Shown here: piece after piece, positions 10,113 to 61,795 of the stretch
How positions within the stretch are numbered: position 1 is the first letter of the stretch
Layout of the letters: every line of letters begins with the position of its first letter
IMG/VR virus record: IMGVR_UViG_3300022752_000024
Coordinates: 78,882-142,881 of that record
DNA: 64,000 nt
From: a virus
Direction: 5' to 3' (one strand)
Notes under the pieces: generated by a model
Seen by the model: the letters and a program-made list of their open reading frames with translations, nothing else
Databases searched by the model: none
Told to the model about the DNA's origin: nothing
Translations under genes and position numbers: made by a program

Positions 10113-11807
10113 ATGATACCATTACTAGGTAATAAATCTAGACCAGAACCATCAGAAGAATTAACAAACAATGCAGGCGGATTGATGAGTAAATTCAATC
10201 CGTCTAATTTGGTTCGAGGTTTGGTTGGAGGTAAACGATCAGGTTCTTCTATGGGTGATATGATTGGAACAGATAGACAGAAATTAAAATCTGCCGTAAG
10301 TCCAAAAAACAAAGATCCAGAACTAACAACGGTTGGAGCATCCGATATCTCTCCTGTTCGTAAAGGTGATTCTGTTGCAAACGTGGCTGCAAAAGTATAT
10401 AACCTAATTAACGGAAAATATGATGAAAGAAAAAAAGAAATTAAACTCGAAAATAAGCTGACACAAGAGTTAGCAATAAAAAAAGAAAAAAGACATACGG
10501 AACTTTTGAGAGCATTGAGCGAGAGACCTAAGCAAAAAGTAACTGAGGTAAAGGTACCCAAAAAAGAAGAACCCAAACCAACTCCTCAAGCAGCACCTAA
10601 ACCTAGTGCTCCTCAAGCGGCTGCTCCTAAGCCAACAACACCACAAGCTGCTGCTCCTAAACCAGCATCACAGGCAGCAGCCCCAAAACCTGGTGCTCCT
10701 CAAGCGGCTGCTCCAAAACCTACTACACCACAAGCACCTCAGGCAGCAGCACCTAAACCAACAACACCACAAGCGGCCGCTCCTAAACCAACAACACCAC
10801 AAGCACCACAAGCGGCTGCTCCAAAACCTGCGGCACCTACGGCTGCACCTGCTGCTCCAGCAGTTCCTTCGGCTGCTCCTATTACACAGGCAGCACCTGC
10901 GGTATCTACCGCAACTCAAGTAGCCGTAGGTACAGCATTAGTAGCAGCATCGTCATATTCTTTTGCGGCAGGACCTCTTGCTGAAAATATTGTTGCTCAT
11001 GAAAGTAAAGTTTCTTCTCCATTGCGTAGAGATGGAAAAAAAATTACAACTAAATGGAAAAATGATAGCGAATATAATGCATATAATAAAGGAACTAAAA
11101 TTGCTGCCGATTTTGATGAAAAAGGAGAATCTGTAATTGATTTCTCTAAGATGACAATAGAAGAATATTTGCAGAGAGGTTCTATTAAAGATCCTAAAAA
11201 TCCTAAAAAGATATTTGCTATGGGTAGATATCAAATCATTCCAGACACAATGAAATTTTTGGTTAAGAATTTAAATATAGATCCAAAAACAACATATCTG
11301 ACAAAAGAAACTCAAGATTATCTTTTCATGGCTGGAATCATAGGAACAAAAAGAAAAAAAGTAAAAGCGTATATTGATGGAGATGCAAAAGTAACTAGAG
11401 ATGAAGCCATATTGGAATTATCACAAGAATTTGCCTCAATTGGTGTACCATATGATACGAAATATAAAGGAAAAGTAATAAAAAAAGGACAATCGTATTA
11501 TGGTCAAAACACAAAATCTGGTTTTGCTTTAAATCCTCCAGAAGAAGTTGGTAAAGCTTTAGATGCCGAAAGAGAAAGACAAACGAAACTAAAACAAAAA
11601 TCAACACCATCGAATGTGCCAGGTCAAGGAAAAAAATTAGGTGAAGCATCAACAGAAAATGCAGATTTAAAGAAAACAGCATCATCAGGACAATCCACAA
11701 TAATCATGAATAATAACACTACAGTAGCAGCAATGTCACCAACAAATCAAACTATGGTAGCACCAAAATCTGATGCATCGAAATTCGTACAAGGAGTTGG
11801 AGCATAA
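10113..11807 (+). CDS. Tail protein with Ala/Pro/Lys repeats and lysozyme-like region
   Basis: This 564-residue protein has four parts. Residues 1-85 are a Gly/Ser-rich start with GDSVANVAAKVYNLI. Residues 85-145 are a charged coiled coil. Residues 150-260 form a low-complexity linker of repeated AAPKP and TTPQA units. Residues 285-455 contain VAHESKVSSP and, after FAMG, RYQIIPDTM, resembling lysozyme or transglycosylase domains in tail proteins; the Glu in AHES is a catalytic candidate. Because the gp5-like spike lacks its lysozyme, this protein may supply the cell-wall enzyme for entry (inference). Its N-terminal third is paralogous to the next gene, which it overlaps by one base. Confidence 0.65.
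   Translation: MIPLLGNKSRPEPSEELTNNAGGLMSKFNPSNLVRGLVGGKRSGSSMGDMIGTDRQKLKSAVSPKNKDPELTTVGASDISPVRKGDSVANVAAKVYNLINGKYDERKKEIKLENKLTQELAIKKEKRHTELLRALSERPKQKVTEVKVPKKEEPKPTPQAAPKPSAPQAAAPKPTTPQAAAPKPASQAAAPKPGAPQAAAPKPTTPQAPQAAAPKPTTPQAAAPKPTTPQAPQAAAPKPAAPTAAPAAPAVPSAAPITQAAPAVSTATQVAVGTALVAASSYSFAAGPLAENIVAHESKVSSPLRRDGKKITTKWKNDSEYNAYNKGTKIAADFDEKGESVIDFSKMTIEEYLQRGSIKDPKNPKKIFAMGRYQIIPDTMKFLVKNLNIDPKTTYLTKETQDYLFMAGIIGTKRKKVKAYIDGDAKVTRDEAILELSQEFASIGVPYDTKYKGKVIKKGQSYYGQNTKSGFALNPPEEVGKALDAERERQTKLKQKSTPSNVPGQGKKLGEASTENADLKKTASSGQSTIIMNNNTTVAAMSPTNQTMVAPKSDASKFVQGVGA
10563..10860 (+). repeat. In-frame Ala-Pro-Lys coding repeats
   Basis: Short units such as gcggctgctcctaaacc and ccaacaacaccacaagc recur about ten times with small changes. 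In frame they give repeats of AAAPKP and TTPQA, a flexible linker. The low complexity also opens long spurious reading frames in other phases. Confidence 0.8.
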
Positions 11808-16151: not shown

Positions 16152-16243
16152 ATCATTCTCCTTGATTTGTCATAGCAAAATACTACGACTATAATTATAT
16201 ATGCATAGTGTAACACGAATGTAATAATTAAAACCATTAAAAT

Positions 16244-16274
16244 GCAAGGTGATTGGGTAATAAGGACACCTTGC
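16244..16274 (-). terminator. Hairpin at the 3' end of the tmRNA transcript
   Basis: GCAAGGTG and CACCTTGC pair perfectly over 8 bp with a 15-base loop, followed on the minus strand by ATTTTAATGGTTTTAATT. It may be a weak terminator or a tmRNA structural helix; read-through would transcribe pqqA. Confidence 0.5.
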
Positions 16275-16289
16275 GAAACCCCAAGAGAA

Positions 16290-16331
16290 TTAAGCCGCTA
16301 GGCGTTCATCTCCAAAATATGCATCGTTTGC
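16290..16331 (-). other. tmRNA tag reading frame (ANDAYFGDERLAA)
   Basis: After the usual lead-in AAGTAAAT the frame resumes at GCA and reads ANDAYFGDERLAA then TAA. It starts with Ala-Asn-Asp as in most proteobacterial tags and ends Leu-Ala-Ala, the signal read by ClpXP and similar proteases. Confidence 0.9.
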
Positions 16332-16567
16332 ATTTACTTGTTTTGCTCGGATTACGTCCGTCGCCTTTCGTGTTGCCTTCTCTATTATCTCACCCTGTCG
16401 AAACCAGGTCATCCCCATCAGAAGTACACAATCCCCGCTAGAGCCCTAAGAGGTTTCTTTCATCTAGGACAACTATGCACTTCTGGTGGAGATGGAGGGA
16501 ATCGAACCCTCGTCCAGAATGCCTTCACTTTGAAGGAATTACAACAATTCTAATTCTTGTATTTTAT

Positions 16568-16660
16568 TTATTCATTGTAGCTATACAATAACCAAATACA
16601 AATGGATATCAAACAACCAATAGCTAACCCGATACAGAATCCAGTTATGTATTGTATCAT
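16568..16660 (-). CDS. Possible 30-residue membrane peptide
   Basis: An ATG at 16658-16660 opens MIQYITGFCIGLAIG and continues as a single hydrophobic segment before ending YSYNE. The ribosome site is weak and the ATG lies inside the -10 region of the putative tmRNA promoter, so gene and promoter may be alternatives. Other tiny membrane proteins in this phage make it plausible. Confidence 0.35.
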   Translation of the reverse strand: MIQYITGFCIGLAIGCLISICIWLLYSYNE

Positions 16661-47645: not shown

Positions 47646-48293
47646 TTATATTGTCCATACAAATTCTTCTATCATAGGGAAGATAGGTCTAATTGCTTCT
47701 GCACATGCTAAAGCTATTTCTTGATGTTCCTTCTGTGTACCATTTGCACTCCTGAGTTGTATATAGTGAACCCAAGAACGCAAATTTCCGTTCATATACA
47801 GGCGAGAAGGGGTCATACCCTCAGGTAATACTACTCTTGCTTGTTCTTTAGCAACCCCGTTTTTTATTGCCCAGTCATAGGCTTGCTGCACTTTAAATGC
47901 TACTGCTTCTTGTTGTTCTTTCCATCTTTGTTTGATATACTCATCACCAGTTTCAATACTGTTTTGACGATTCTTATTGTCCTGCAATCTTGCTTCACGG
48001 TATTCAAATTCATTTTCCACTACCGCATATCGTTGGCTAAATTCTTGAAAAGAAAAAGACCTATGACGCAATATTTGCCTTGCTATATCTCTTGTTGTAT
48101 TAATTTCTAAACACACATTCACCATTTCTAAAGGTGACCAATGTTGATGTTTAACTAGATAACGAACCAGTTTTTCTGCTGTTTCATTATTATTTTGATT
48201 TGCCGGATTAGACACTCTAGCGGCATATGCTACCTGTTCTAGTAAGTTTTTTCCGTCTGTTGTCTGAGAATAATTAATTAATTCAACTTTCAT
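47646..48293 (-). CDS. thyX: Flavin-dependent thymidylate synthase
   Basis: The 215-residue ThyX makes dTMP from dUMP with FAD. The signature RHRSFSFQEFSQR (RHRxxSxxxxSxR, near residue 74) is complete, and the substrate-binding LRSWVHYIQLRSAN is present near residue 175. I chose the ATG at 48293, starting MKVELINYSQ. It is next to nrdA, as in other marine T4-like phages. Confidence 0.95.
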   Translation of the reverse strand: MKVELINYSQTTDGKNLLEQVAYAARVSNPANQNNNETAEKLVRYLVKHQHWSPLEMVNVCLEINTTRDIARQILRHRSFSFQEFSQRYAVVENEFEYREARLQDNKNRQNSIETGDEYIKQRWKEQQEAVAFKVQQAYDWAIKNGVAKEQARVVLPEGMTPSRLYMNGNLRSWVHYIQLRSANGTQKEHQEIALACAEAIRPIFPMIEEFVWTI

Positions 48294-48756
48294 TACCATA
48301 GCTCCATATTTCCTTTTTATATTCATCTGACCAATGATCATAATATGATGAGTTTTTTAATGCATTTCTAGCATTAATTAATTTATCTTTAGGCTGTGCA
48401 ATGATAACTGGATACTGTTCATTACCGGTACGAATACCATTAATGTAACCAGGATCGTCAGGATGATCCTTGAGAAAGATAATATTGTTAAAATTTTTAT
48501 TCAAGTTATTAATTATAACAACACAATCATCATTTGTCAAATTACCAATACTATTTAAAAATAATACTACTTCATAGTCACCAACAAAGCTTTCCATGTA
48601 GCGTGATATGAAGTCTTCTGGTTCATAAGAAATATATGATATGAAGATTTTATTATCAAGTAAAGCTTTTTTTGCATATGGACATATAGCAAAACCATCA
48701 AGCTCACTTCTTTTTTTGGATATATGGTTAATCCAATTAATTATATTTTCTTCCAT
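48283..48756 (-). CDS. Conserved phage protein of unknown function
   Basis: A 157-residue acidic protein (MEENIINWINHISKKRSELD, GFAICPYAKKALL). The single Cys in ICPYAK and several aromatic residues recall DUF1415-type proteins, but I cannot assign a role. It overlaps primase at one end and thyX at the other. Confidence 0.6.
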   Translation of the reverse strand: MEENIINWINHISKKRSELDGFAICPYAKKALLDNKIFISYISYEPEDFISRYMESFVGDYEVVLFLNSIGNLTNDDCVVIINNLNKNFNNIIFLKDHPDDPGYINGIRTGNEQYPVIIAQPKDKLINARNALKNSSYYDHWSDEYKKEIWSYGNES

Positions 48757-49760
48757 GATGTAAACTCAAGGTTCGCTCTTAAATTACAGAAAGTAAATTT
48801 ATCTATAAGATCCAATATTTCATCAGGTGAAATTCCTGCTAAAATCATCTCATTTATATCTTTTTGCTTGATGTTTTCCGGCAGTAATGTTACATTATAT
48901 CCAGAAGTGATTGCTTTACCAATTTGTTTTACAATATCTTTATTTCTTGGTTCATTATCATACACTAAAACAAAATCAGTTAGTTCTAACTTCGCTGCTC
49001 TTGTAAGATCAGAATCGGCAGTCGCAATTGCATTTGGTAAAAACAACGAATCGATTGGACCTTCAACTACATAAACTTTTTTATTTTTGTCAACTCTATT
49101 TAATCCATAAAACTTTGGTGTTTCAACCAAGGAGATCGTGATATAACGGATCTTTGATTCAGCAAGAGCCCGACCCTGAATGGCAATGAGTTCATTACTT
49201 TCATTGTAGAATGGGATGACAAGCCTAGCATCTTCCTCTTTAAGATTCTCGTTTTCAACGCCGAGAGATTGTACCAGTTTTTTGAAATCAGGAGCAAAGT
49301 ATAATTCTTCATGAAAACTATTCGGAATTTTCCTTGCTTGAACATATTTTTTTGCAAAATGCGAATCTGGTAAGGCTTCAATTGTATCCAAGTCGATCTT
49401 CTTTTGTGCCTTCTTCTCATCGAACGTTGGTTGACTCTTGAACCCTTCAAAGTTCGGTTTCGGATAATTATGATTCCCGGTCTCACCATTGGTAAAACGC
49501 TCATAAGCATATTCTTTCAATAAAGAAGGATCGATAAGTCTTAGGAAGTTATAAAAAGTATGACCAGTACCACAGTTGTGGCATGTATAGAAATAGTCGT
49601 TATTCTTCTTATAAACAAATCCTCTTGCTTTGGATTTATTCTTTTGTGAATCGCCACAAATAGGACACCTAAAGTTGTACAGGTCTTGCTTTTTTTGAGC
49701 AAAACGTTCCAACTTTGGTGAAACTAGGTGCAGGAATTTTCGATCAATATAGATACTCAT
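48741..49760 (-). CDS. gp61: DNA primase gp61
   Basis: The 339-residue product matches T4 gp61 (342 residues). A zinc finger is visible at CPICGDSQKNKSKARGF and YTCHNCGTGHTF (residues 33-70), and the TOPRIM centre at KVYVVEGPIDSLFLPNAIAT and FVLVYDNEPRNKD. It makes RNA primers with the gp41 helicase, which gp59 loads. gp41 is not in the window. A sigma70-type promoter lies just upstream. Confidence 0.93.
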   Translation of the reverse strand: MSIYIDRKFLHLVSPKLERFAQKKQDLYNFRCPICGDSQKNKSKARGFVYKKNNDYFYTCHNCGTGHTFYNFLRLIDPSLLKEYAYERFTNGETGNHNYPKPNFEGFKSQPTFDEKKAQKKIDLDTIEALPDSHFAKKYVQARKIPNSFHEELYFAPDFKKLVQSLGVENENLKEEDARLVIPFYNESNELIAIQGRALAESKIRYITISLVETPKFYGLNRVDKNKKVYVVEGPIDSLFLPNAIATADSDLTRAAKLELTDFVLVYDNEPRNKDIVKQIGKAITSGYNVTLLPENIKQKDINEMILAGISPDEILDLIDKFTFCNLRANLEFTSWKKI

Positions 49761-51189: not shown

Positions 51190-51804
51190 TTATGCTCCAA
51201 AAACATGTAAAGCATGTTCGTAGTGTTTAATTCTATCATCTAGACCAATAGTACCACCATTGATTACTTTGGTCATCTTCACAATATCACCTTTATCCGC
51301 TAAATCATTTAGCTTATTTGTTTCCCAGAACCAGCATCCTGATTGTGCAGCACCTTCAAAGGTACCCATATACAATGCCGCTTCTTCTGGTGAAATTTGT
51401 AATGATGCTGCAAACCATGTATAGTTTGTTTTACCAGTCAATTGGATTAGACCACGACCACGATATTTATATCCATCACCTGACGCTTCGTCTCCATTAC
51501 CCATGCGATTCGCATAGATTTTGTTTGCGATCTTTTGTGGATTTTTTTCGTATGCTTTAGCAGTAGCCATATCCGGAAAGTATTTTCCAAATATCTTCAT
51601 TAGACTTTCTGCTTTGTAATTTAGATTTTCTGATAAGAAAATAAACTCACCAGACTCATGAGCGCATTGTGCCATAAATGCAGCAATACGCTTTGGTGTG
51701 TTTATTTCATAATCGGGAAGCAATTGACTTAATGCTTTATGCCATTGGTCAACGTAAGGATTTTTAGGAAGCAGTTGTTTTAATTGTTCTTTTGTCAGTT
51801 CCAT
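51190..51804 (-). CDS. GH19 chitinase-like endolysin
   Basis: The 204-residue protein is a glycoside hydrolase family 19 lysozyme: AAFMAQCAHESGEFIFLSEN (catalytic Glu in HESG and a second Glu nine residues on) and YRGRGLIQLTGKTNY, the family signature. It cuts peptidoglycan sugar chains. It has no signal peptide, so a holin must release it. Its gene is followed by a spanin-like pair. Confidence 0.9.
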   Translation of the reverse strand: MELTKEQLKQLLPKNPYVDQWHKALSQLLPDYEINTPKRIAAFMAQCAHESGEFIFLSENLNYKAESLMKIFGKYFPDMATAKAYEKNPQKIANKIYANRMGNGDEASGDGYKYRGRGLIQLTGKTNYTWFAASLQISPEEAALYMGTFEGAAQSGCWFWETNKLNDLADKGDIVKMTKVINGGTIGLDDRIKHYEHALHVFGA

Positions 51805-52516: not shown

Positions 52517-52774
52517 TTATTTTATCAATTCCAAAACACTATTATTGTTATTATTTTTTTCTATTTTGATCCAACCATTATTACCAAATTTGTATCCTTC
52601 TTTTTCTTTTACGGATACTTTTAAGCCTTCAAAATTTTGTACAATATACTTTGCTAAACTATTATTGTCTAAACCATTCATTTTAATTAACATTATGTTT
52701 TCAACTATTGAAGCTTCTACTTTTATTTCAAACTTTTCTTCGAGAAAACTTTTAACGTCAACAAATTCTGTCAC
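52517..52774 (-). CDS. Protein of unknown function
   Basis: An 85-residue acidic protein (MTEFVDVKSFLEEKFEIKVE), mainly beta and helix with an Asn-rich end. Between lysis genes and packaging-related proteins. No family recognised. Confidence 0.55.
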   Translation of the reverse strand: MTEFVDVKSFLEEKFEIKVEASIVENIMLIKMNGLDNNSLAKYIVQNFEGLKVSVKEKEGYKFGNNGWIKIEKNNNNNSVLELIK

Positions 52775-52944
52775 TTCGGTACTTTCCTGTATAATGTAGG
52801 ATATTTTCTTTTTCTCTTTTTCATGTCAACCGCAGTTGCACTAACTGGATCGGTTCCACTTTGTGGACCAGTCACATTAGTTGGTCCTGCTGATGCCACG
52901 GCACCTGCACCCATCTCACTAATAAATTTCTTAAATGTGATCAT
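52771..52944 (-). CDS. Small protein with capsid-targeting-like N-terminus
   Basis: A 57-residue protein starting MITFKKFISEMGAGAVASAG. The first ten residues resemble T4 capsid targeting sequences, which gp21 cuts after (L/I)-x-E; here the cut would follow ISE, leaving GAGAVASAG-rich mature protein ending in a basic tail. I chose the ATG at 52944 (ATGA overlap with the previous stop). Confidence 0.6.
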   Translation of the reverse strand: MITFKKFISEMGAGAVASAGPTNVTGPQSGTDPVSATAVDMKKRKRKYPTLYRKVPK

Positions 52945-54116
52945 CTGCAATTCCATTTTCTTAAAGATTTATTAATTCTGCTATTAGGATCTCTTGCTGT
53001 TTTTGCCGAAGTCAATCTTTTTTTCATTCCTTTCATTCTAGCACAAAAGGACTTTCTACGATTAGCAGCTTTACTACCTTTCTTTAATTTAGAAGGCTTT
53101 GTAGTAACTGCCATAGATAACTTCGATCCTGGATTTTCTCTGCGGTATGACATGATGCCTTTGCGATTCAAACCACCTTTAGGGTCTTTTCCTTCTTTTC
53201 TTTTCCATGCAGCAGATTCGTCTAATTCTTGTTTTATCCAATCATCAGGAGTTTTACCGTGTTTCTTTTTAAAGTCGTTATGTAATTCTTTACCGGTTAT
53301 GTCATGATTCGCAGATATCTTCATCATCAATTTATGTATAGTATCGTAATCGTGTTTGTCTAAATTGTGCAAACCAGATTCTAATTCTCTAACGTGATCT
53401 TCTGTCAAGATATCATCTATAATATTAAATTCTTCTTTTAGACCGGCAATAAAGTTATAATCGTCCATTGTTAGGACACCTTTTTTGCGAATATCGATGA
53501 GTCTTTCGGTGATGCGGTGAAGTTCTAGATCATCTTTAATATCTTCTCTAGCCAATTCGAGCATACGAATCATCAAAGGAATATTAAAGGTTATGGTATC
53601 TTTTTTATCTTCTGCTTCAGATATGTAGGCTTTAAATGATTTCATTGGTTGTTTTTCTTCTTTTACTGATTTCCAACCACCACCTTTTGACTTGTACCAC
53701 TTAGAAGCCCAACCGTTTGCATATGCAGAAGGATATACATCAAATTTTGATCTTGCTAGTGATACTGCTCTTGACCAAAGCTTGGGATTTGTTGGCTTAT
53801 TTTTTTCTTCTAAATGTTCCATGTCTTCACTCATCTTTCTTTTTCCGGTACTCGACACATTAATTGGTGCGCCTTTTCTTTCTGGATTAGGATCGTGTTT
53901 TCTTTTTGCTCTAACAGCAGCAGCACGTTGCGTTTTAGAAAGTGATGATCTCTGTGTTTTTGACATACACTTTGGTTTTGCTTCACCGGGTTCTCTAGCA
54001 CAAGGACCAACAACCTCACCTTTAGAATTGATTCTTTTCCAATCGCCTTTAGGATGAGTTTTGCTAAACCACTGTCTTAAATCCTCATTGTGTAAAAAGC
54101 TTTTTAGAGATTTCAT
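52941..54116 (-). CDS. Basic head-associated protein with two conserved phage domains
   Basis: The 391-residue protein begins MKSLKSFLHNEDLRQWFSK. Residues 8-90 (CAREPGEAKPKCMSKTQR and similar) match the DUF5872-type phage domain. Near residue 157 a second start-like peptide MKSFKAYISEAEDK follows. The last 90 residues (KGIMSYRRENPGSKLSMAVT, RKSFCARMKGMK) match a very basic phage domain I remember as DUF6321. High Lys/Arg content suggests DNA contact in the head. No enzymatic motif is visible. Confidence 0.65.
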   Translation of the reverse strand: MKSLKSFLHNEDLRQWFSKTHPKGDWKRINSKGEVVGPCAREPGEAKPKCMSKTQRSSLSKTQRAAAVRAKRKHDPNPERKGAPINVSSTGKRKMSEDMEHLEEKNKPTNPKLWSRAVSLARSKFDVYPSAYANGWASKWYKSKGGGWKSVKEEKQPMKSFKAYISEAEDKKDTITFNIPLMIRMLELAREDIKDDLELHRITERLIDIRKKGVLTMDDYNFIAGLKEEFNIIDDILTEDHVRELESGLHNLDKHDYDTIHKLMMKISANHDITGKELHNDFKKKHGKTPDDWIKQELDESAAWKRKEGKDPKGGLNRKGIMSYRRENPGSKLSMAVTTKPSKLKKGSKAANRRKSFCARMKGMKKRLTSAKTARDPNSRINKSLRKWNCR

Positions 54117-54499
54117 AGTTTTCTTAGTGTTTCTGCGATATGTAAATCTACAGGAATATCGGAAACAAAAATATCTTTTCCATTTACTCCTTTGATGACT
54201 TTTGGTAATATATTTAAATACATCAAGAATGTCTTCAGTACGTCATAATCTCGTTCTTCTATCCGATAGAATAATATTCTTGATATGGCTTCTGGACCAA
54301 AAACATTATTCAACAATATAAGATGATTAAGTATCAATCTTTCTTTTAGTGTTTTTGTTAGCTTATATCTTCGAAAGAGCCTCTTGAGATACTTTGTTCT
54401 CTTGAGGTCTCCTTCGAATTCCGACATTATACAATTTGGCGACTCATAAGCTTTTGCAGCATAAATCAAAAAATTGCTTTCATTCAAATCATCAAACAT
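54113..54499 (-). CDS. Conserved phage protein near structural genes
   Basis: The 128-residue all-helical protein includes FLIYAAKAYESPNC near its start, ERLILNHLILLNNVFGPEAI, and a Leu-rich end. It is recognisable from T4-like marine phages (I believe DUF7207) and of unknown function. Its start lies 14 bases after a small gap from a virion protein gene. Confidence 0.65.
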   Translation of the reverse strand: MFDDLNESNFLIYAAKAYESPNCIMSEFEGDLKRTKYLKRLFRRYKLTKTLKERLILNHLILLNNVFGPEAISRILFYRIEERDYDVLKTFLMYLNILPKVIKGVNGKDIFVSDIPVDLHIAETLRKL

Positions 54500-54512
54500 C
54501 TAATATTTCTTA

Positions 54513-55142
54513 TTATAGACCACTAAAGTAGCTGTTTGAAGTAGTATTTCCTGAAGAAACATTAAAAGCTACTGGATTTGCTAGTGCAACTAAAGTTTCT
54601 TTTAGGTAACGCTTTGTTCCGTCGCTATTTACTTTAAAAGTGAATCTATTCCATCCAGTATTAATGGCGCTGTTTGCTCCACTAATCAAACTATTCGCTA
54701 GACGAGATGCTGTAACTAAAATAACATCGGCGCCACGGTTTGGATACTGAACATTGGTGCTAGGAATCGTATTGGCAACATAAACAAGAGAACCGCTTGC
54801 AAGTGTTGCAAACACAGGATTCGCTATGTTAATTTTAGAGTTGGCAGTATCTATCGAAGTAATTGTGTTATTTGACTTTAAAAATCCAACATCGTTTTGG
54901 TTAACACCAGACAAGTCGAAAGCTAGTCTCGAAACTGCAACATCTCCTACAAATGAGTTAGCTACTCCATACACATACATACCAACAGCAATCGAACCAA
55001 AGCTTGCGTTTGATGTGAAGGTAATCGTGTTTCCTGATGTAACTGCACCATTAGTTGTGAGTACTGCTACAGGTAAAACTTCTCTTAAATCTGGAAACGC
55101 TGGTTTATTATTTCCAGAATCCGTATTTCCCCATGATGGCAT
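54513..55142 (-). CDS. Virion structural protein
   Basis: The 209-residue protein starts MPSWGNTDSGNNKPAFPDLR, a start I recognise from structural proteins of T4-like marine phages. It is low in charge and rich in Ser, Asn, Thr and Val (beta-sandwich type), with a C-terminal domain near WNRFTFKVNSDGTKRYLKET. It may decorate the capsid or tail. A late-type box lies 33 bases upstream. Confidence 0.75.
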   Translation of the reverse strand: MPSWGNTDSGNNKPAFPDLREVLPVAVLTTNGAVTSGNTITFTSNASFGSIAVGMYVYGVANSFVGDVAVSRLAFDLSGVNQNDVGFLKSNNTITSIDTANSKINIANPVFATLASGSLVYVANTIPSTNVQYPNRGADVILVTASRLANSLISGANSAINTGWNRFTFKVNSDGTKRYLKETLVALANPVAFNVSSGNTTSNSYFSGL

Positions 55143-55173
55143 TTTATTCTCCTTTTAACCGAGGGTTATATTG

Positions 55174-56517
55174 TTATTTATTAGATTTCTTTTCTTCTTT
55201 TTTCTTGTCGTCTTTCTTATCATCCTTTTTGGTCACATCGGGTTGACCTGGACGATTTCTCATCATTGGATCTAATTCGACAGTATCTCTATTCTGTTTT
55301 GTTAGAGTTGTTCCTCCAGATAAAGTTGCGGCTGCTGTAGGTTTTTTATCGCCTTTACTATCTTTCTCATCCGCCTTTTCTAGCTTAGGAGATTTTCCAT
55401 AAACTCTTGCTGGATCTTTATTTTCTTTTTCGTGATCGTAGGTGTCTTCTTTCATAACACTTTTTTTCTTATACACCGACTTAACGATTCTGGCAGAACG
55501 AGAGTCTTCTTTTTTTCTTTCTGCTACTCTTGTTAATGTTCCTTTTGGTTCATCAGACAATACAGATTCTTTTTTAATATCATTGATTTCAGATTGCTTT
55601 TGAGTAGCTTGTTTCTTATAATGTTCTGGATCAGGTAATCCAGATGATTTTCTAATTGCTTGATGTTTTTGATGTAATCTTTCAGCAGCCGTAGGAGTTG
55701 ATTTTTTAATGTTGATTTTAATTGGTTTTACTTTTGCTTCATCAAGTTCAACTTCTTCTTCTTTTACGCAAGACCCAGGTGAATATGCTTTCTTACCTGG
55801 TTTAGGTTTATATCCTGTCCAGCAGCGACTTGCTTCATCTAACTCAAGTGTTTCATAATCATAATCTTCTTTCATCTCTTTTGATTCTTCTTCTTCTTCA
55901 TAATCATCAGGATCAATCTTTAGTTCATCTTTACGATTTTGGTAGTCTAAAAGTTTCTTGATGTTTTCGATATGACCTTGTAGATAACCATGCTCCAAAC
56001 GCATATCTGGATTAACCATAGCAACCATACGATCCAGTTGATCTTTAATATTTTGTGCAACAATTAAATATCCAAGATCATCTTCTTTAGGAGAACCTTT
56101 TTTCTCCATAAGATGTTTCTCGATGAAGAAAATGCAATCTTGTAGTTTAGCCATGCCTTCTACGAGATCATATGAATCTGCTTCGACTCTATCTTCGATG
56201 TATTCATAAATTTCAGTCGCTACGGGACACATATGAAAATAACGAGTATAGTAATCAAATACTTTTATTTCATGATCTTCTGGATGATTCTTTTGTTCCA
56301 TGAACTCAACTTCTTCTCTTTGGGTCATCAGCCATTGTTTAAATGCATTTGACTTAGAGTGAGCAATCTTTACGTCTTTAGTGACATATTCAGGATTAAT
56401 ACCTCTAGTTTTTAGATATTTGTCCAACGAAGCAGATTCGGAGATACCAGCTTTAGCTGACCATGGATCCCAAGGATTTTTACCAAAAACTTCTTTAAAC
56501 GTCTTTTTATTCTTCAT
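55174..56517 (-). CDS. Lys/Glu-rich protein, probable virion or prohead protein
   Basis: The 447-residue protein starts MKNKKTFKEVFGKNPWDPWS. Residues 40-200 are a helical domain (KLQDCIFFIEKHLMEKKGSP), followed by acidic and basic low-complexity stretches with repeated EEVELDEA and a DDKKDDKKKEEKKSNK tail. The LDEA repeats resemble scaffold- or internal-protein segments in T4-like phages. No enzymatic motif is seen. I chose the ATG at 56517; AAGGA precedes it. Confidence 0.6.
   Translation of the reverse strand: MKNKKTFKEVFGKNPWDPWSAKAGISESASLDKYLKTRGINPEYVTKDVKIAHSKSNAFKQWLMTQREEVEFMEQKNHPEDHEIKVFDYYTRYFHMCPVATEIYEYIEDRVEADSYDLVEGMAKLQDCIFFIEKHLMEKKGSPKEDDLGYLIVAQNIKDQLDRMVAMVNPDMRLEHGYLQGHIENIKKLLDYQNRKDELKIDPDDYEEEEESKEMKEDYDYETLELDEASRCWTGYKPKPGKKAYSPGSCVKEEEVELDEAKVKPIKINIKKSTPTAAERLHQKHQAIRKSSGLPDPEHYKKQATQKQSEINDIKKESVLSDEPKGTLTRVAERKKEDSRSARIVKSVYKKKSVMKEDTYDHEKENKDPARVYGKSPKLEKADEKDSKGDKKPTAAATLSGGTTLTKQNRDTVELDPMMRNRPGQPDVTKKDDKKDDKKKEEKKSNK
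55175..55182 (-). promoter_or_regulatory. Late-type promoter box (AATAAATA)
   Basis: One mismatch from TATAAATA, 33 bases before the structural gene at 55142 and overlapping the stop of the previous gene. Confidence 0.5.
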
Positions 56518-57529
56518 CACTTTTTCCTTCTGAAGTCATACCAGCCTTTCCCAACATTTCTTTTTTTAGTGATGAGAATGATTTCAGTTTGTATGGTGGC
56601 TTATTAGCAGGAGTATTTTTCATTTCATCCAATTCAACTTCTTCTGATGTTGGTTTATAGTCCTTTAGTCGAGCGTAAGCTTTTCCTAAATTGTCAACAT
56701 CTTTCTTAGTAGTTGTTGGTTGATGCATCTTTTTTAAAACATATGATTTAACTGTAGATTTACTCAATTCATCAAGTTCTTCAACTTCTTCTTTCTTAAC
56801 AGTCACTGGCATTGTTTTACCTTGAAACTCAAAAGATTTCTTTCCTTGCTTTGCAGCAGCATGAGCAGCCATACGTAGACCACTTTCTTCTACATCTGTA
56901 TCTTCGTGCTTATATGCAACTTTATAGCTAGAATGTTCGTTATCTTTACCACCTTTAGTACGACCAGCTAATGTGTCCGTAGTTCTTTGAGAGTGGTCTA
57001 TTTTTTCATCGATTTGATCTGCATCTTCTTTCATTGCTTGTTTAGTAGCAGTAGCATACATCACTTCTTTCCAACGTTTACCATATTTCTTCTTAAATTG
57101 ATCGGTATTGTCTTTCATAGACATAACAATTTCTTCTTTTTTCTTGGCTTGTGCTGGAGTCATTTCTTTTTCGTCCATAGGAATGGCACCTTTTTTGCCA
57201 TACATAGATTCAATTAGACGATCAGTAAAAGTCAAATCTTCTTTAGAATACAACTTAGTATTGGTAAATCGTTTTTGGCGAGCACCATATTTACCTCTCT
57301 TTTCTTTCGGCTCATCATCGTCATGTTCAGGTTCATCTTTTTGACGACCACCACCATAACGTGTCCCTAATTTAACACCAGAACCACCACTTGGTTTTGG
57401 TTCACTTGCTCTCTTTTTAGCATCTGCTACAGTAGGAAATGCTTCATTTAATTGCTCGGATTCTTTTTTGTCTAATACTTTGTTAACCGAATCGATTAAT
57501 GATTGAGATACTTTGTCTTTTGCGAACAT
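56507..57529 (-). CDS. Lys/Glu-rich protein with repeated internal motif
   Basis: The 340-residue protein is very charged, with segments such as LDELSKSTVKSYVLKKMHQ and ELDEMKNTPANKPPYKLKS, and KKYGKRWKEVMYATATKQA. The LDELSK...SY motif occurs in many proteins of marine T4-like phages, perhaps as a processing or head-targeting element. It overlaps its downstream neighbour by 11 bases. Likely head-associated; function unknown. Confidence 0.6.
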   Translation of the reverse strand: MFAKDKVSQSLIDSVNKVLDKKESEQLNEAFPTVADAKKRASEPKPSGGSGVKLGTRYGGGRQKDEPEHDDDEPKEKRGKYGARQKRFTNTKLYSKEDLTFTDRLIESMYGKKGAIPMDEKEMTPAQAKKKEEIVMSMKDNTDQFKKKYGKRWKEVMYATATKQAMKEDADQIDEKIDHSQRTTDTLAGRTKGGKDNEHSSYKVAYKHEDTDVEESGLRMAAHAAAKQGKKSFEFQGKTMPVTVKKEEVEELDELSKSTVKSYVLKKMHQPTTTKKDVDNLGKAYARLKDYKPTSEEVELDEMKNTPANKPPYKLKSFSSLKKEMLGKAGMTSEGKSDEE

Positions 57530-57530
57530 A

Positions 57531-59414
57531 TTATTTCTCCTGTTTCTTTTTCTTTTTGATTGTTATACCAATAGTTCTATCTTGGTCTTTATATGACTGT
57601 AATGGTTCTTTGTTTGTTGCTCCGTTCAGTACGCCACCCACTCCCATATCTACTGCTCCGGGGTCGTCTATTGCCTCTTTTACTTTGGATCTGATTTGAC
57701 TAAATTTGCGAGGACCATCTGCGGTGCCTTTCTTGTTGTATTTATCGAAAGACATATCCTCACGATACGTTACGTCCCCAAGACCTGACATAGGATACAC
57801 CGTTCCTTGTTGTCTAGTATCAAATTCTGGACCAATACCCGATAGGTTTCTGAGCCTCTGATTTGGGGTTGGAGAATCAGACCATCTTCTGTTTTTTGCT
57901 TTTAGCTTTTCTTTGTCTTGCGTGAAGTTGGGTTCTTTGGGCGGTGGGTTGATTGTGAGTTTAGGTTCTTTTGTTGACCTACTGGTTTCTTTTTTGGTTT
58001 TGTTGGATTCGTAGGTTCTGAAGGTGTAACCTGAGTTACTGGCAAGGTCTCCGTCGGTAACGGAATCGATTTTTCCAGACTTTCTGAGGAGTTGCATGAC
58101 TGGACTATTGTTGTCGGCAACGTACTGTCCTTTGATTCCGCTACTGTTGGAGTTTGTTTTTTGAATAGACTTAGAATTTTTTGAAACATGAGAATACTCC
58201 TTAAATATCATCGAAAATTTTTCATTTATATCTATCTTACTATTTTTTGCAAGCCAATCGTAAGCAACATCATTGGAAGTCTGTCGATCTAAGAAATCAT
58301 TGACATGGTCATAAACATCAGTAATCGATTCCTCAACAACTTCGAGGTTATCATTGTTATTGAACAAATTGAAATCTTCAAACATTTGATGATATATTAC
58401 TTTGTTTGTTTGAGACTTTTGCCATTTTTCTTGACGAATTGACTCGTCTATCATTCGTCTTAGACCAATATTTCTCTTTCTACTAACTTCATCTAAGGTA
58501 TCCACATACACCATCATTGTAGAATATCCTAATTCTTCCAATTCTTCTTTAACGATTGAGAGTTTTTCGATGTTATCTGCGGTACTATTAATTATCAGTG
58601 GACCACGAATTCGAATAGCTTCTCTACGGTAATCTCTTGTTTGTTCTGATAGTTTTTGCTTATCCATCAAGTAGTCAAAAGCTTGTGCGATATTCAACTC
58701 CACCGCTTTTTCTTCAGCTATAGCTTCTCGAATAATAATGTCTTTTCCTGATCCTGGACCACCAGTCACAAAGATAGCTTTAAATTTGCCACGCATATGA
58801 GATTCGTTTAATCCCATACCAGTTCTAGTATCATGCATTAATTCTTTAGCATGAGAATTAGAAACATGATTAGGAACACCAAGCTTGAAGCTTTTGATAT
58901 CATTATTCTTGGCATGTTCACGCATTTTAGTGCCAGACATACCTTCTGTTCCTTCTGCATCAGGATCTCGTTCTCCAGCAGAATGTACAGTTATTTTTTT
59001 GAAGTTATATAATGCTCCTTCGTGAGTTCCATTGTATTTGTTTAGTTTTTCTTTCATTTCAGCAACACGGTCAGAACCAACAACCATATGTAGATGAGTT
59101 ACACCTTTTTTGTGTAACTGCTCTGCATGATGAATAAAACTAGGATTTGCTTTAGAAGAAGCTTCAAAATTAGTGCCAGGAGAATATCTCTTTAGATGTT
59201 TTAGCTTTTGTGATGCTGATAATGGATTCTTTTTTGCATCTTGAGAGTGTGAGGTAACCACAGAATGCGTTGCATTATTCTTTTTGGCTACGTCTTTAAC
59301 TTTATCAATTAACTTCAAATGTCCAGTTGTGGGTGGATTCATTCTACCAAATGTAAAAACATGGTGAACTTCTCCACTTTTCTCCTCTTGCAATATGTCT
59401 AAAAAAGTTTTCAT
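57531..59414 (-). CDS. Nucleotidyltransferase-kinase fusion, NadR-like
   Basis: The 627-residue protein starts MKTFLDILQEEKSGEVHHVF. Residues 18-190 are a nucleotidyltransferase domain with FGRMNPPTTGHLKL (HxGH type) and a late GMSGTKMREHA (SxTxxR type). A P-loop GGPGSGKDIIIREAI follows near residue 218, then a kinase-like region with MMVYVDTLDEVSRKRN. This order is that of NadR (NMN adenylyltransferase plus nicotinamide riboside kinase). The C-terminal 200 residues (GYTFRTYESNKTK and on) are a conserved T4-like tail. An N-terminal capsid-targeting-like peptide may place it in the head. Substrates unproven. Confidence 0.7.
   Translation of the reverse strand: MKTFLDILQEEKSGEVHHVFTFGRMNPPTTGHLKLIDKVKDVAKKNNATHSVVTSHSQDAKKNPLSASQKLKHLKRYSPGTNFEASSKANPSFIHHAEQLHKKGVTHLHMVVGSDRVAEMKEKLNKYNGTHEGALYNFKKITVHSAGERDPDAEGTEGMSGTKMREHAKNNDIKSFKLGVPNHVSNSHAKELMHDTRTGMGLNESHMRGKFKAIFVTGGPGSGKDIIIREAIAEEKAVELNIAQAFDYLMDKQKLSEQTRDYRREAIRIRGPLIINSTADNIEKLSIVKEELEELGYSTMMVYVDTLDEVSRKRNIGLRRMIDESIRQEKWQKSQTNKVIYHQMFEDFNLFNNNDNLEVVEESITDVYDHVNDFLDRQTSNDVAYDWLAKNSKIDINEKFSMIFKEYSHVSKNSKSIQKTNSNSSGIKGQYVADNNSPVMQLLRKSGKIDSVTDGDLASNSGYTFRTYESNKTKKETSRSTKEPKLTINPPPKEPNFTQDKEKLKAKNRRWSDSPTPNQRLRNLSGIGPEFDTRQQGTVYPMSGLGDVTYREDMSFDKYNKKGTADGPRKFSQIRSKVKEAIDDPGAVDMGVGGVLNGATNKEPLQSYKDQDRTIGITIKKKKKQEK
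57902..58189 (-). CDS. Possible nested overlapping gene
   Basis: In another frame inside the NadR-like gene, a 95-residue frame starts MFQKILSLFKKQTPTVAESK with AAGGAG seven bases upstream of its ATG, and ends in a Pro/Lys/Thr/Ser-rich chain. The good ribosome site sets it apart from ordinary shadow frames. Low-complexity composition means it could still be chance. Confidence 0.35.
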   Translation of the reverse strand: MFQKILSLFKKQTPTVAESKDSTLPTTIVQSCNSSESLEKSIPLPTETLPVTQVTPSEPTNPTKPKKKPVGQQKNLNSQSTHRPKNPTSRKTKKS

Positions 59415-59420
59415 TCTAAC

Positions 59421-60575
59421 TTAATCTCCGGCTGTTGTGCCTGAGCCTTTTATTGAACTGAGTGGATCCGATTGGGAATTAAATTTAATTCTATGTGAAG
59501 CAAAAGTTTTACCTTTATACTTAAATTGAACTCCAGTTCCACTATGATGAACTTCAATATTTTCATGATCATTAAAAATATGTTCATGATGCTCACTAGG
59601 ATCAATTGAATGATGTTTAAATTCTCCTCGTGAAGTATATGATGTATGTCTTATGTGATTATGTCCTTCATTCTGCATCGGGGTTTTATGTGCATGAATC
59701 ACCTTTCTGATATGATCAACCAATTCTTCTTTTGGTAAATTAGAAAGATGCTCATGTAAATGAGAGGAAATCTTATTTAATGTTTCAGCATTTTTCTTCT
59801 TCACATAAGCATTCATTTTTGGATTATCTTTCAGCATTTTTTTTCTCTGATCAGCATTTGTTGCCTGAGTCACCAGTTTTGGATATTTTTTAATGATGTC
59901 TTTTCGATGCTCATCATGAATATCTTGAGCTTTAGGTCCAGCCGATCCAATACCCAGATTCGATGTTGGGACATGCTTACTTGAAGAATCAGTTACTTTT
60001 AAACTAATACCATTATGTTTAACTTGTTTCTTTTTGCGAGTTGATGCAACTATGTCAGATGAATCTTCTTTTTGTGTCGCCTTTATACCAGTTGTACGTA
60101 ACAAATCGTTAGGTTGAGATGTCCAATGTACCTGATGTATTTTATGGCCATCGACTTCAACTTTTTTCTTAATGTCATTGGCAGCCGATTTTGCTCTATT
60201 ATTTATTTTTTTATATTCATTATTACTGACAAGCTTCTTTAATCTATCGTGCGCTTCTTCTGGGCTATCTCCATTTTTGTCTGGATGTTTTTCCATGTGC
60301 TTTCCACCAAGCAAATGGTATCCAGTTAGAATTTCGTGAAGTTTGCCTTTTGTGTCTGGCGAGGCTTTTTTGTTTTCGGTTTCTTCTGCTAATTCATACA
60401 AGTCATCTTCTTCATCAAAATGAGATTCTTTTAAGCTCATTTCTTTTAATTCTTGTTCATCTTGCATTCTTAAATGCTTTAAAATTTTATCTATTTCAGC
60501 ATCAGTAAGATGTTCTTTTTTTTCAGTCAAGAGTCCTGCTCTTTCCATCCACATTATTTTTTGTATGGTGTTCAT
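59421..60575 (-). CDS. His/Lys-rich phage protein, probable head-associated
   Basis: The 384-residue protein starts MNTIQKIMWMERAGLLTEKK, an N-terminus like a capsid-targeting peptide (LLTE). It is Lys/His-rich, with a middle domain VHWTSQPNDLLRTTGIKATQ and NGISLKVTDSSSKHVPTSNL that looks like a small enzymatic core, perhaps of restriction-nuclease type. AAGGAAAAAAAC lies before the ATG at 60575; an upstream in-frame start at 60647 is not supported. Function unknown. Confidence 0.55.
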   Translation of the reverse strand: MNTIQKIMWMERAGLLTEKKEHLTDAEIDKILKHLRMQDEQELKEMSLKESHFDEEDDLYELAEETENKKASPDTKGKLHEILTGYHLLGGKHMEKHPDKNGDSPEEAHDRLKKLVSNNEYKKINNRAKSAANDIKKKVEVDGHKIHQVHWTSQPNDLLRTTGIKATQKEDSSDIVASTRKKKQVKHNGISLKVTDSSSKHVPTSNLGIGSAGPKAQDIHDEHRKDIIKKYPKLVTQATNADQRKKMLKDNPKMNAYVKKKNAETLNKISSHLHEHLSNLPKEELVDHIRKVIHAHKTPMQNEGHNHIRHTSYTSRGEFKHHSIDPSEHHEHIFNDHENIEVHHSGTGVQFKYKGKTFASHRIKFNSQSDPLSSIKGSGTTAGD

Positions 60576-60588
60576 GTTTTTTTCCTTA

Positions 60589-61737
60589 TTATTCTTTTGC
60601 AAATCTAGGATTATTAAGTATTGCGTTTGAGACTTTGACTGGAACAAGTTTCGAAACTGGTCTCATTTTTCCAGCCTTGTCTTTTTTCTGAAGAACGATA
60701 CCTTCACCTTGAGATTTTTTACCATCTATACTTGTGTGCATATCAGGATGTTCAACACCTTTTAAAACATGTTCAGTAGCTTGTCCTAAGTGATGACGTA
60801 TATCTAAAGAACGTTGAAAATGGCTAGAATTTTGATCAACATGTGATTTCAGAGAATCAAATTTTGCACGAGTTTTTGTTTTTCCAGCTCCAGTTTTTAA
60901 CTTTGATGCCGCTTTTTCACCTTCATCATTCAAATGTTTCTTGTAACCTTCGATAGAAGCAGTTTCTCCACGTCTTGTTGTTCTATTTAAGTATGTAGTA
61001 AAATGTCCACCTTTTTTTGTGTCAATATGTTCTGGTGTAAGATGATGTGTTTTGTGATTCTTCAGTAATGCTTCGGCAGCACTAATATGGTGATCTGTAG
61101 CCTCTTTGTCGTCCTTTGAATACGTAGAAGATTTGGCATGATATTCATGTTCTGGCACAAAAACATTTTTACTTTTCTTCAAAGCACCATTAGATACTGC
61201 ATGGGCTACACCATGACTAACTTCTGTATGAACTGCTATTCCTAGCGGTGCTTTAGTTTTTGCCTTGTAGGTGATTCGATTTGGTGTTGTGGTGGTGTGT
61301 TCTCCTGATGTTTCTCCAGGAGACTCTGGAGTATGCAACAAATCTCCCTGAACATGATGTCCTTTATTAACAAATTCATGGCCATGCTTGAGTAGATGTT
61401 TTAGAGATTTTGCGTATTCTGGTTGGTGTCCAAAGTGGTGGTCAACTTCTTCAGGTGTTCTGGCAATAATTCCTCTGGCAATCCTGTGTTTATCAGAAAC
61501 ACCGACGCCATGCTGATCATGAATAACATGAACCGAAGCACCACCGTCAGTTTTTAGTGATGCGCCAACGTTGCTCGGTTTACCTAGTCTCTTTTTGTGG
61601 AATTGTTTAATCAAGTCAACTGCCATACGAGCATGTTGTGGAGCTTCGTGAGGTATGTCCTTTGTGTGGGTTAGATGACCCAACATCTCATCATCAATGG
61701 ATGAAGCTTCTATTAAAAATGACTTAAATGATCGCAT
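60589..61737 (-). CDS. Nucleotidyltransferase/ligase-like phage protein
   Basis: The 382-residue protein starts MRSFKSFLIEASSIDDEMLG, a capsid-targeting-like N-terminus (cut after LIE). Four ligase-like motifs follow in order: ASLKTDGGASVHV (KxDG, near residue 55), VQGDLLHTP, EGIVLQKKD and KLVPVK. This is the pattern of covalent nucleotidyltransferases (DNA/RNA ligases). His-rich loops separate them. A TATAAATA late box lies 51 bases upstream. I chose the ATG at 61737 over in-frame starts further up. Confidence 0.6.
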   Translation of the reverse strand: MRSFKSFLIEASSIDDEMLGHLTHTKDIPHEAPQHARMAVDLIKQFHKKRLGKPSNVGASLKTDGGASVHVIHDQHGVGVSDKHRIARGIIARTPEEVDHHFGHQPEYAKSLKHLLKHGHEFVNKGHHVQGDLLHTPESPGETSGEHTTTTPNRITYKAKTKAPLGIAVHTEVSHGVAHAVSNGALKKSKNVFVPEHEYHAKSSTYSKDDKEATDHHISAAEALLKNHKTHHLTPEHIDTKKGGHFTTYLNRTTRRGETASIEGYKKHLNDEGEKAASKLKTGAGKTKTRAKFDSLKSHVDQNSSHFQRSLDIRHHLGQATEHVLKGVEHPDMHTSIDGKKSQGEGIVLQKKDKAGKMRPVSKLVPVKVSNAILNNPRFAKE

Positions 61738-61787: not shown

Positions 61788-61795
61788 TATTTATA
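61788..61795 (-). promoter_or_regulatory. T4-type late promoter box
   Basis: Exact TATAAATA on the minus strand; the gene at 61737 starts about 51 bases downstream. A small hairpin (GCAAC/GTTGC, 61761-61778) lies in the leader. Confidence 0.65.

Follow-up and report, generated by a model that had tools for sequence, protein, structure and literature searches.

The genes of the viral module described here begin, in several cases, with short peptides that we interpret with high confidence as capsid-targeting sequences of the kind carried by the internal proteins of phage T4. The module occupies positions 52771 to 61737, on the minus strand, of a 64,000-nucleotide stretch of DNA (hereafter the window), which is part of the 142,881-base IMG/VR virus record IMGVR_UViG_3300022752_000024 (record positions 78,882 to 142,881). 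A preliminary description of the window had noted capsid-targeting-like starts on neighbouring genes of this region, and all five of the peptides that it named are indeed present: the canonical starts MITFKKFISE, MRSFKSFLIE, and MKTFLDILQE, the longer variant MNTIQKIMWMERAGLLTE, and MKSFKAYISE inside another open reading frame (ORF). The window proteins share with T4 IPI, IPII, and IPIII (MKTYQEFIAE or MKTFKEF...ITE) a ten-residue N-terminal tag with aromatic residues at positions 4 and 7, an aliphatic residue at position 8, and Glu at position 10, as well as small basic carriers, a gp21-type protease in the genome, and placement of the tag on otherwise unrelated proteins. Mutagenesis of IPIII in T4 showed that residues 4 and 7 are needed for targeting, and residues 8 and 10 for processing (PMC9026906); these are the very columns that are conserved in the tag, and in the window the residues at these positions are as needed in three genes and degenerate in two. 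The T4-like use of the tags proposed in the preliminary description (targeting, followed by a gp21-type cut) is the best explanation of the evidence given below, namely the protease, the gp23 site, the matches in T4, and an ortholog found in virions.

Recurrence and placement of the tag

We defined a strict tag pattern, M..[FYLI]..[FYIL][ILVM].E, and considered 136 related loci around homologs of DUF6267, the protein encoded by the first tagged gene of the module (mostly IMG/VR contigs; 2,250 ORFs). Across these loci, the motif stands at the start of 265 of 2,086 ORFs, compared with 8 of 8,137 internal Met residues. Counted as distinct 10-mers, it is found in 183 of 2,969 starts and at 9 of 7,113 internal Met residues (odds ratio 52, P ~5e-86), the window's own internal MKSFKAYISE being one of the nine. 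Because ORF and peptide counts share ancestry, the number of tag-bearing homology clusters (37 of 832, against 1.8 expected) is the fairer figure.

An alternative is that these N-termini recur for reasons unconnected with targeting, either because translation initiation is biased (AAA-rich starts, MK...) or because the operon has been duplicated: Lys is frequent as the second residue of phage proteins, and orthologs share ancestry. Start-codon context, however, leaves the aromatic residues at 4 and 7, the aliphatic residue at 8, and the Glu at 10 unexplained. The strict pattern was itself chosen to include these four columns; a position-free test, in which the core [FY]..[FY][LIVM].E was counted anywhere in 532,000 residues, is not circular in this way. 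The first aromatic residue of the core falls at residue 4 in 167 cases, at other N-terminal positions in 29, and in the rest of the 532,000 residues in 68, with a sharp peak at residue 4 relative to the two flanking positions (9 and 10 cases). The tag moreover recurs across unrelated clusters and varies in presence among orthologs, close and distant ones alike retaining it on different proteins, and we judge initiation bias or duplication to be a very improbable explanation.

Comparison of N-termini across relatives, which the preliminary description had suggested, yields the consensus M-K/L-S/T-F-K-x-F/Y-L/I-x-E↓A/E/S/G (here and below, ↓ marks a known or predicted cut site), with A, E, S, or G following the tag Glu in 140 of 202 cases. 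In some loci (L094, L095, and L097), five tagged genes are consecutive or nearly so.

Applied to approximately 150 kb of T4, the strict pattern returns ipII, ipIII, gp24, the 54-aa gp61.1, and two spurious ORFs; gp21 is known to cut ipII, ipIII, and gp24 (PMC5694885). Two ORFs of SPO1 that match the pattern were, like the two in T4, judged likely spurious. We note separately that T4 gene 61.1 (locus L144, 8966-9130), whose 54-aa product is annotated as hypothetical and starts MKTFKEFIKE↓D, would by the tag rule encode a packaged internal protein. The short, basic, and hydrophobic character of the peptides might also suggest membrane-associating amphipathic starts that hold the proteins at the host membrane. 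We consider this highly unlikely, given that the peptides are ten residues long, keep a Glu, and lack a hydrophobic run, that they match specifically a T4 capsid-targeting sequence of known function (PMC9026906), and that one tagged ortholog is present in virions (PMC3037559).

The machinery to cut such tags appears to be encoded by the same phage. Its head genes (gp23, gp22, a gp21-family protease, and the portal) lie outside the window, at approximately 37-48 kb of the record, with the protease (PF03420, E=4.3e-34) between the portal and scaffold genes. The known cut site of T4 gp23, FLTE↓AEIGG, aligns with LLSE↓VNSAG in the gp23 of this phage, and its scaffold protein gp22 is rich in [LI]xE (15 sites versus 6.9 expected, P<0.002). 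Together, the gp23 alignment and the gp22 enrichment point indirectly to a protease specificity of (L/I)xE↓. By gene order, the nearest isolates are Pelagibacter phage HTVC008M, Methylophilales phage Melnitz, C48C1, Stenotrophomonas phage DLP6, and T4-like cyanophages, and the phage is placed near Kyanoviridae, not Tevenvirinae.

The module also carries a T4-type late promoter element, TATAAATA, at 61788-61795 on the minus strand, 50 nt upstream of the DUF6267 start. Genome-wide, the element is absent from the plus strand and occurs 11 times on the minus strand, 8 of these within 70 nt upstream of ORFs, gp22 included. Among the relatives, it is found in the 90 nt upstream of 51 of 230 tagged ORFs (22%) versus 89 of 1838 untagged ORFs (4.8%), on a background within ORFs of 0.3% per 90 nt; its reverse complement, in the same upstream test, is found at 0 tagged and 7 untagged ORFs. 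The distance from the element to the DUF6267 ATG in relatives is 30 to 68 nt.

The tagged enzyme-like proteins and their proposed fate

The first tagged gene of the module (60589-61737, minus strand) encodes a DUF6267 protein of 382 aa (Pfam PF19782, E=3.5e-24). Its tag, MRSFKSFLIE↓A (61708-61737), is found in strict form in 90 of 132 members of the homology cluster, as 62 distinct 10-mers. The tag behaves as a detachable N-terminal extension: the core begins with KNTHLEHLED in the untagged protein of S-MbCM7, and follows the tag elsewhere. The motifs KxDG (motif I), QGD, EGxV (motif IV), and KxV (motif V) occur in this order and are invariant over 58 diverse members, the invariant residues (58-63 members) being K62, D64, G65, E345, G346, V348, and K363. 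In the AlphaFold2 model (predicted local distance difference test score [pLDDT] 91.5, predicted template modeling score [pTM] 0.88), residues 8-19, which form the tag linker, are disordered, and in a Foldseek comparison with the PDB, the leading 29 matches are all DNA or RNA ligases (best E=7.1e-3, probability 0.98). No Foldseek match has E <0.001, so the fit to the ligase fold is partial.

We read DUF6267, on the strength of the motifs and the model, as a probable divergent nucleotidyltransferase of the ATP-dependent-ligase superfamily. As in ATP-dependent DNA and RNA ligases, KxDG, EGxV, and KxV come in the right order, and the model matches ligases first; unlike them, DUF6267 shows low template modeling (TM) scores and a long helical insert. 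PDB sequence searches with a DUF6267 profile gave no match, and hhalign comparisons with T4 RnlA and gp30 were not significant, the RnlA match falling on the EGYV motif. A search of the open-licence literature returned no paper naming DUF6267.

A second tagged gene (57531-59414, minus strand) encodes a 627-aa protein that combines an HxGH-type nucleotidyltransferase (cytidyltransferase; Pfam CTP_transf_like, E=1.9e-6; phrog_3041, E=1.7e-64; TIGR00125), with its signature conserved, and a P-loop kinase-like domain. In HTVC008M, the P-loop domain is a separate gene, there resembling L-seryl-tRNA kinase and related kinases; a PDB search with the nucleotidyltransferase profile gave no match. Its tag, MKTFLDILQE↓E (59385-59414), occurs in 67 of the 114 proteins of its cluster, in 37 distinct forms. 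By sequence comparison, the protein is a homolog of T4-GC190 of cyanophage S-SM1, and Sullivan et al. (PMC3037559) detected this putative cytidylyltransferase in S-SM1 virions by mass spectrometry. The S-SM1 protein starts MKKFSAFLNE↓AERS, and nothing else in the 25 kb examined fits the strict pattern; the orthologs of P-SSM2 (MKSFSQFLTE) and P-RSM4 (MKKFNAFLIE) likewise carry perfect tags on an orthologous nucleotidyltransferase domain. The window protein differs in being fused to the P-loop kinase-like domain, is only approximately 40% identical, and is a predicted virion protein, presence in virions being known for the S-SM1 ortholog (PMC3037559). Two jumbo-phage homologs of the nucleotidyltransferase are untagged, and begin directly at the enzyme core. 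As a side observation, in phage C48C1 (locus L009, 8995-9064) the annotated start of the cytidyltransferase leaves out an in-frame, ATT-initiated, tag-like IKNFSQYLLE↓E, and that start may therefore be misannotated or non-ATG.

Between these two genes lies one for a 384-aa protein (59421-60575, minus strand), with a non-canonical tag or propeptide, MNTIQKIMWMERAGLLTE, followed by Lys (60522-60575). Close orthologs carry MTTIQTRIWLERAGLLAE followed by Ala, and others have canonical tags such as MLNFKSFLKE and MISFSNFLTE; T4 IPI likewise has an MKTFKEF start with an ITE cut motif further along, the same layout as the window peptide. Because of the orthologs' canonical tags and the IPI layout, the reading of this peptide (MNTIQKIMWM...LLTE) as a tag in the preliminary description is credible, although it is non-canonical. 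The protein has seven [LI]xE sites, five of them within residues 18-64. Residues E81, D174, S191, and K193 are invariant over 16 homologs and nuclease-like, and the protein is possibly a PD-(D/E)xK-type nuclease; since the fold matches of its model (pLDDT 84) are weak and mixed (best nuclease HinP1I, E=0.16, probability 0.41), we do not claim that identity, and a PDB sequence search with its profile gave no match.

We propose the following course of events. The operon would be transcribed late from the TATAAATA promoter; residues ~1-8 would attach each protein to the scaffold core of the prohead; and the gp21-type protease of the phage would cut after Glu10 (LxE↓), leaving the mature proteins amid the packaged DNA, to enter the host alongside it. 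Carried in this way, with the biochemical roles that we infer for the tagged enzymes, would be the ligase-fold DUF6267, the fusion of nucleotidyltransferase and P-loop kinase-like domain, the possible PD-(D/E)xK nuclease, and also small basic proteins. This is the course known for T4, and the evidence presented here concerns the sequence side of each step. Packaging and cutting of the tagged proteins in this phage are very likely, and their injection is likely.

The targeting and cutting signals are silent on ejection, and the tagged proteins could instead be core, scaffold, or DNA-bound head proteins, packaged and cut like T4 gp67 and gp68, that remain in the head or are lost, and do not reach the host as functional enzymes. 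Similar tags are indeed found on two head-region genes outside the window, one starting MKSLKDFIDE at 41.8 kb of the record between the portal and the protease, and the other encoding a small protein starting MRNFIEYVKE (record positions 47852-48250, beside the terminase gene), both strict matches, the latter of which looks tagged; T4 gp24, a shell protein, has the same motif as well. Structural filler, however, would have no need of catalytic motifs that are invariant over 58 DUF6267 members or of a retained nucleotidyltransferase signature. The only [LI]xE site in DUF6267 is the tag's own, so that the mature protein, being without a further LxE site, would survive. We hold this alternative to be improbable, if less so than the two considered above.

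Several observations weigh against capsid targeting and delivery as we propose them. Enrichment in this genome alone is modest and by itself only suggestive, the strict pattern matching 6 of the 297 ATGs taken as candidate starts and 3 of the 682 internal ones (P=0.026, Fisher test). Chance-looking matches make up one of the six at starts and two of the three at internal ATGs (MEMFDELLDE was rejected as a false match), and the remaining start matches are confined to this module and the head-gene region. Within the window, TATAAATA is no more frequent than chance would give (4 copies versus 8.0 expected), so that its placement alone is informative. The HTVC008M cytidyltransferase starts MKTLKELLRKK, without the Glu, and the DUF6267 orthologs of S-MbCM7, S-SM1, and S-PM2 are untagged although cyanophages have gp21, which makes packaging of DUF6267 lineage-dependent.

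Other genes of the module and its surroundings

The remaining canonical tag, MITFKKFISE↓M, belongs to a 57-aa basic protein (52771-52944, minus strand), similar in layout to the 54-aa gp61.1 of T4. The adjacent gene (52941-54116, minus strand) encodes a 391-aa protein with a C-terminal DUF6321 (PF19846, E=1.4e-17), whose start, MKSLKSFLHNE, is a near match to the tag. The tag-like MKSFKAYISE↓A that the preliminary description had noted inside this ORF occurs there at residues 158-167 (53616-53645), but is less certain as a start, with no clear Shine-Dalgarno sequence. In relatives, DUF6321 is encoded separately, by a short gene that begins with a canonical tag, and the internal peptide is possibly an internal start or the trace of a gene fusion.

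Two charged proteins of the same strand lack a canonical tag: one of 448 aa in the same operon (55174-56517; no informative family match), and one of 340 aa (56507-57529) with LNE↓A at residue 29 and an internal [LI]DE↓xSKxT repeat (ELDE↓LSKSTVKSYV at approximately residue 247), possibly a core or propeptide protein. Their [LI]xE density (55174-57529) is not clearly above shuffles, and we therefore do not claim a cut polyprotein. A short sequence module, SKxTLxSYVxK, is preceded by [LI]DE in five of five distinct cases (the 340-aa protein and loci L039, L097, L118, and L121), and a protein of Caulobacter phage Cr30 starts MRSKILAE↓ISKKTLANYTQKA. The [LI]DE directly before the short module may be a gp21-type cut site, from which small peptides are possibly freed inside the head.

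Close to the module is a GH19-like cell-wall hydrolase (51190-51804, minus strand), by sequence impression probably part of a lysis cassette. ARAGORN called a tmRNA at 16199-16576 (minus strand), with the tag peptide ANDAYFGDERLAA. Outside the window, a HAD-phosphatase-like protein beside the terminase (record positions 48247-48891) starts MKYFRYLREE and looks tagged, and a UvsX-like recombinase gene (10154-11746) appears interrupted; a second recombinase ORF opens with an intein-like C-terminus ending in VLENGIVTHN, after which recombinase sequence continues.

Enzymes as probable cargo in aquatic T4-like phages

The mechanism is already known from T4; the novelty lies in the lineage, the breadth, and the enzyme cargo, to judge from the open-licence literature, a search of which turned up no previous description of the tag from cyanophages or pelagiphages. 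In T4, the carriers are small anti-restriction proteins, whereas here they include conserved multi-domain enzymes in an operon, and outside the tag we found no sequence relation between the T4 internal proteins and the window proteins. T4 also packages and injects the Alt ADP-ribosyltransferase, which gp21 cuts at sites resembling LxE (PMC9026906, PMC5694885). Alt is likewise an enzyme cargo, but of a different class; its tag, MELITE, is shorter, and it is cut at the C-terminus too. The ejection proteins of phiKZ and SPN3US are packaged in the head and cut after Glu by a prohead protease homologous to gp21 (PMC5694885), with four propeptides of >100 residues there versus a tag of approximately 10 here.

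Since the tag stands on several unrelated proteins, enzyme-like ones included, of this uncultured T4-like phage and of many of its aquatic relatives, such phages probably deliver an enzyme set together with their DNA. More speculatively, and with considerable doubt, aquatic T4-like phages might inject a ready-made nucleic-acid end-processing kit (DUF6267, the P-loop kinase and nucleotidyltransferase, the possible nuclease, and the HAD phosphatase near the terminase with its tag-like start) that would repair host-inflicted cuts in phage DNA or tRNA before phage gene expression.

The T4 targeting signal was established with small coliphage proteins that counter restriction. Its apparent occurrence on conserved enzymes of aquatic T4-like phages would provide a simple sequence rule for predicting which proteins of unknown function are packaged and delivered, offers a reason for the presence of a cytidyltransferase in cyanophage virions, and suggests that ligase-like and kinase-like enzymes, once injected, may act early in infection.

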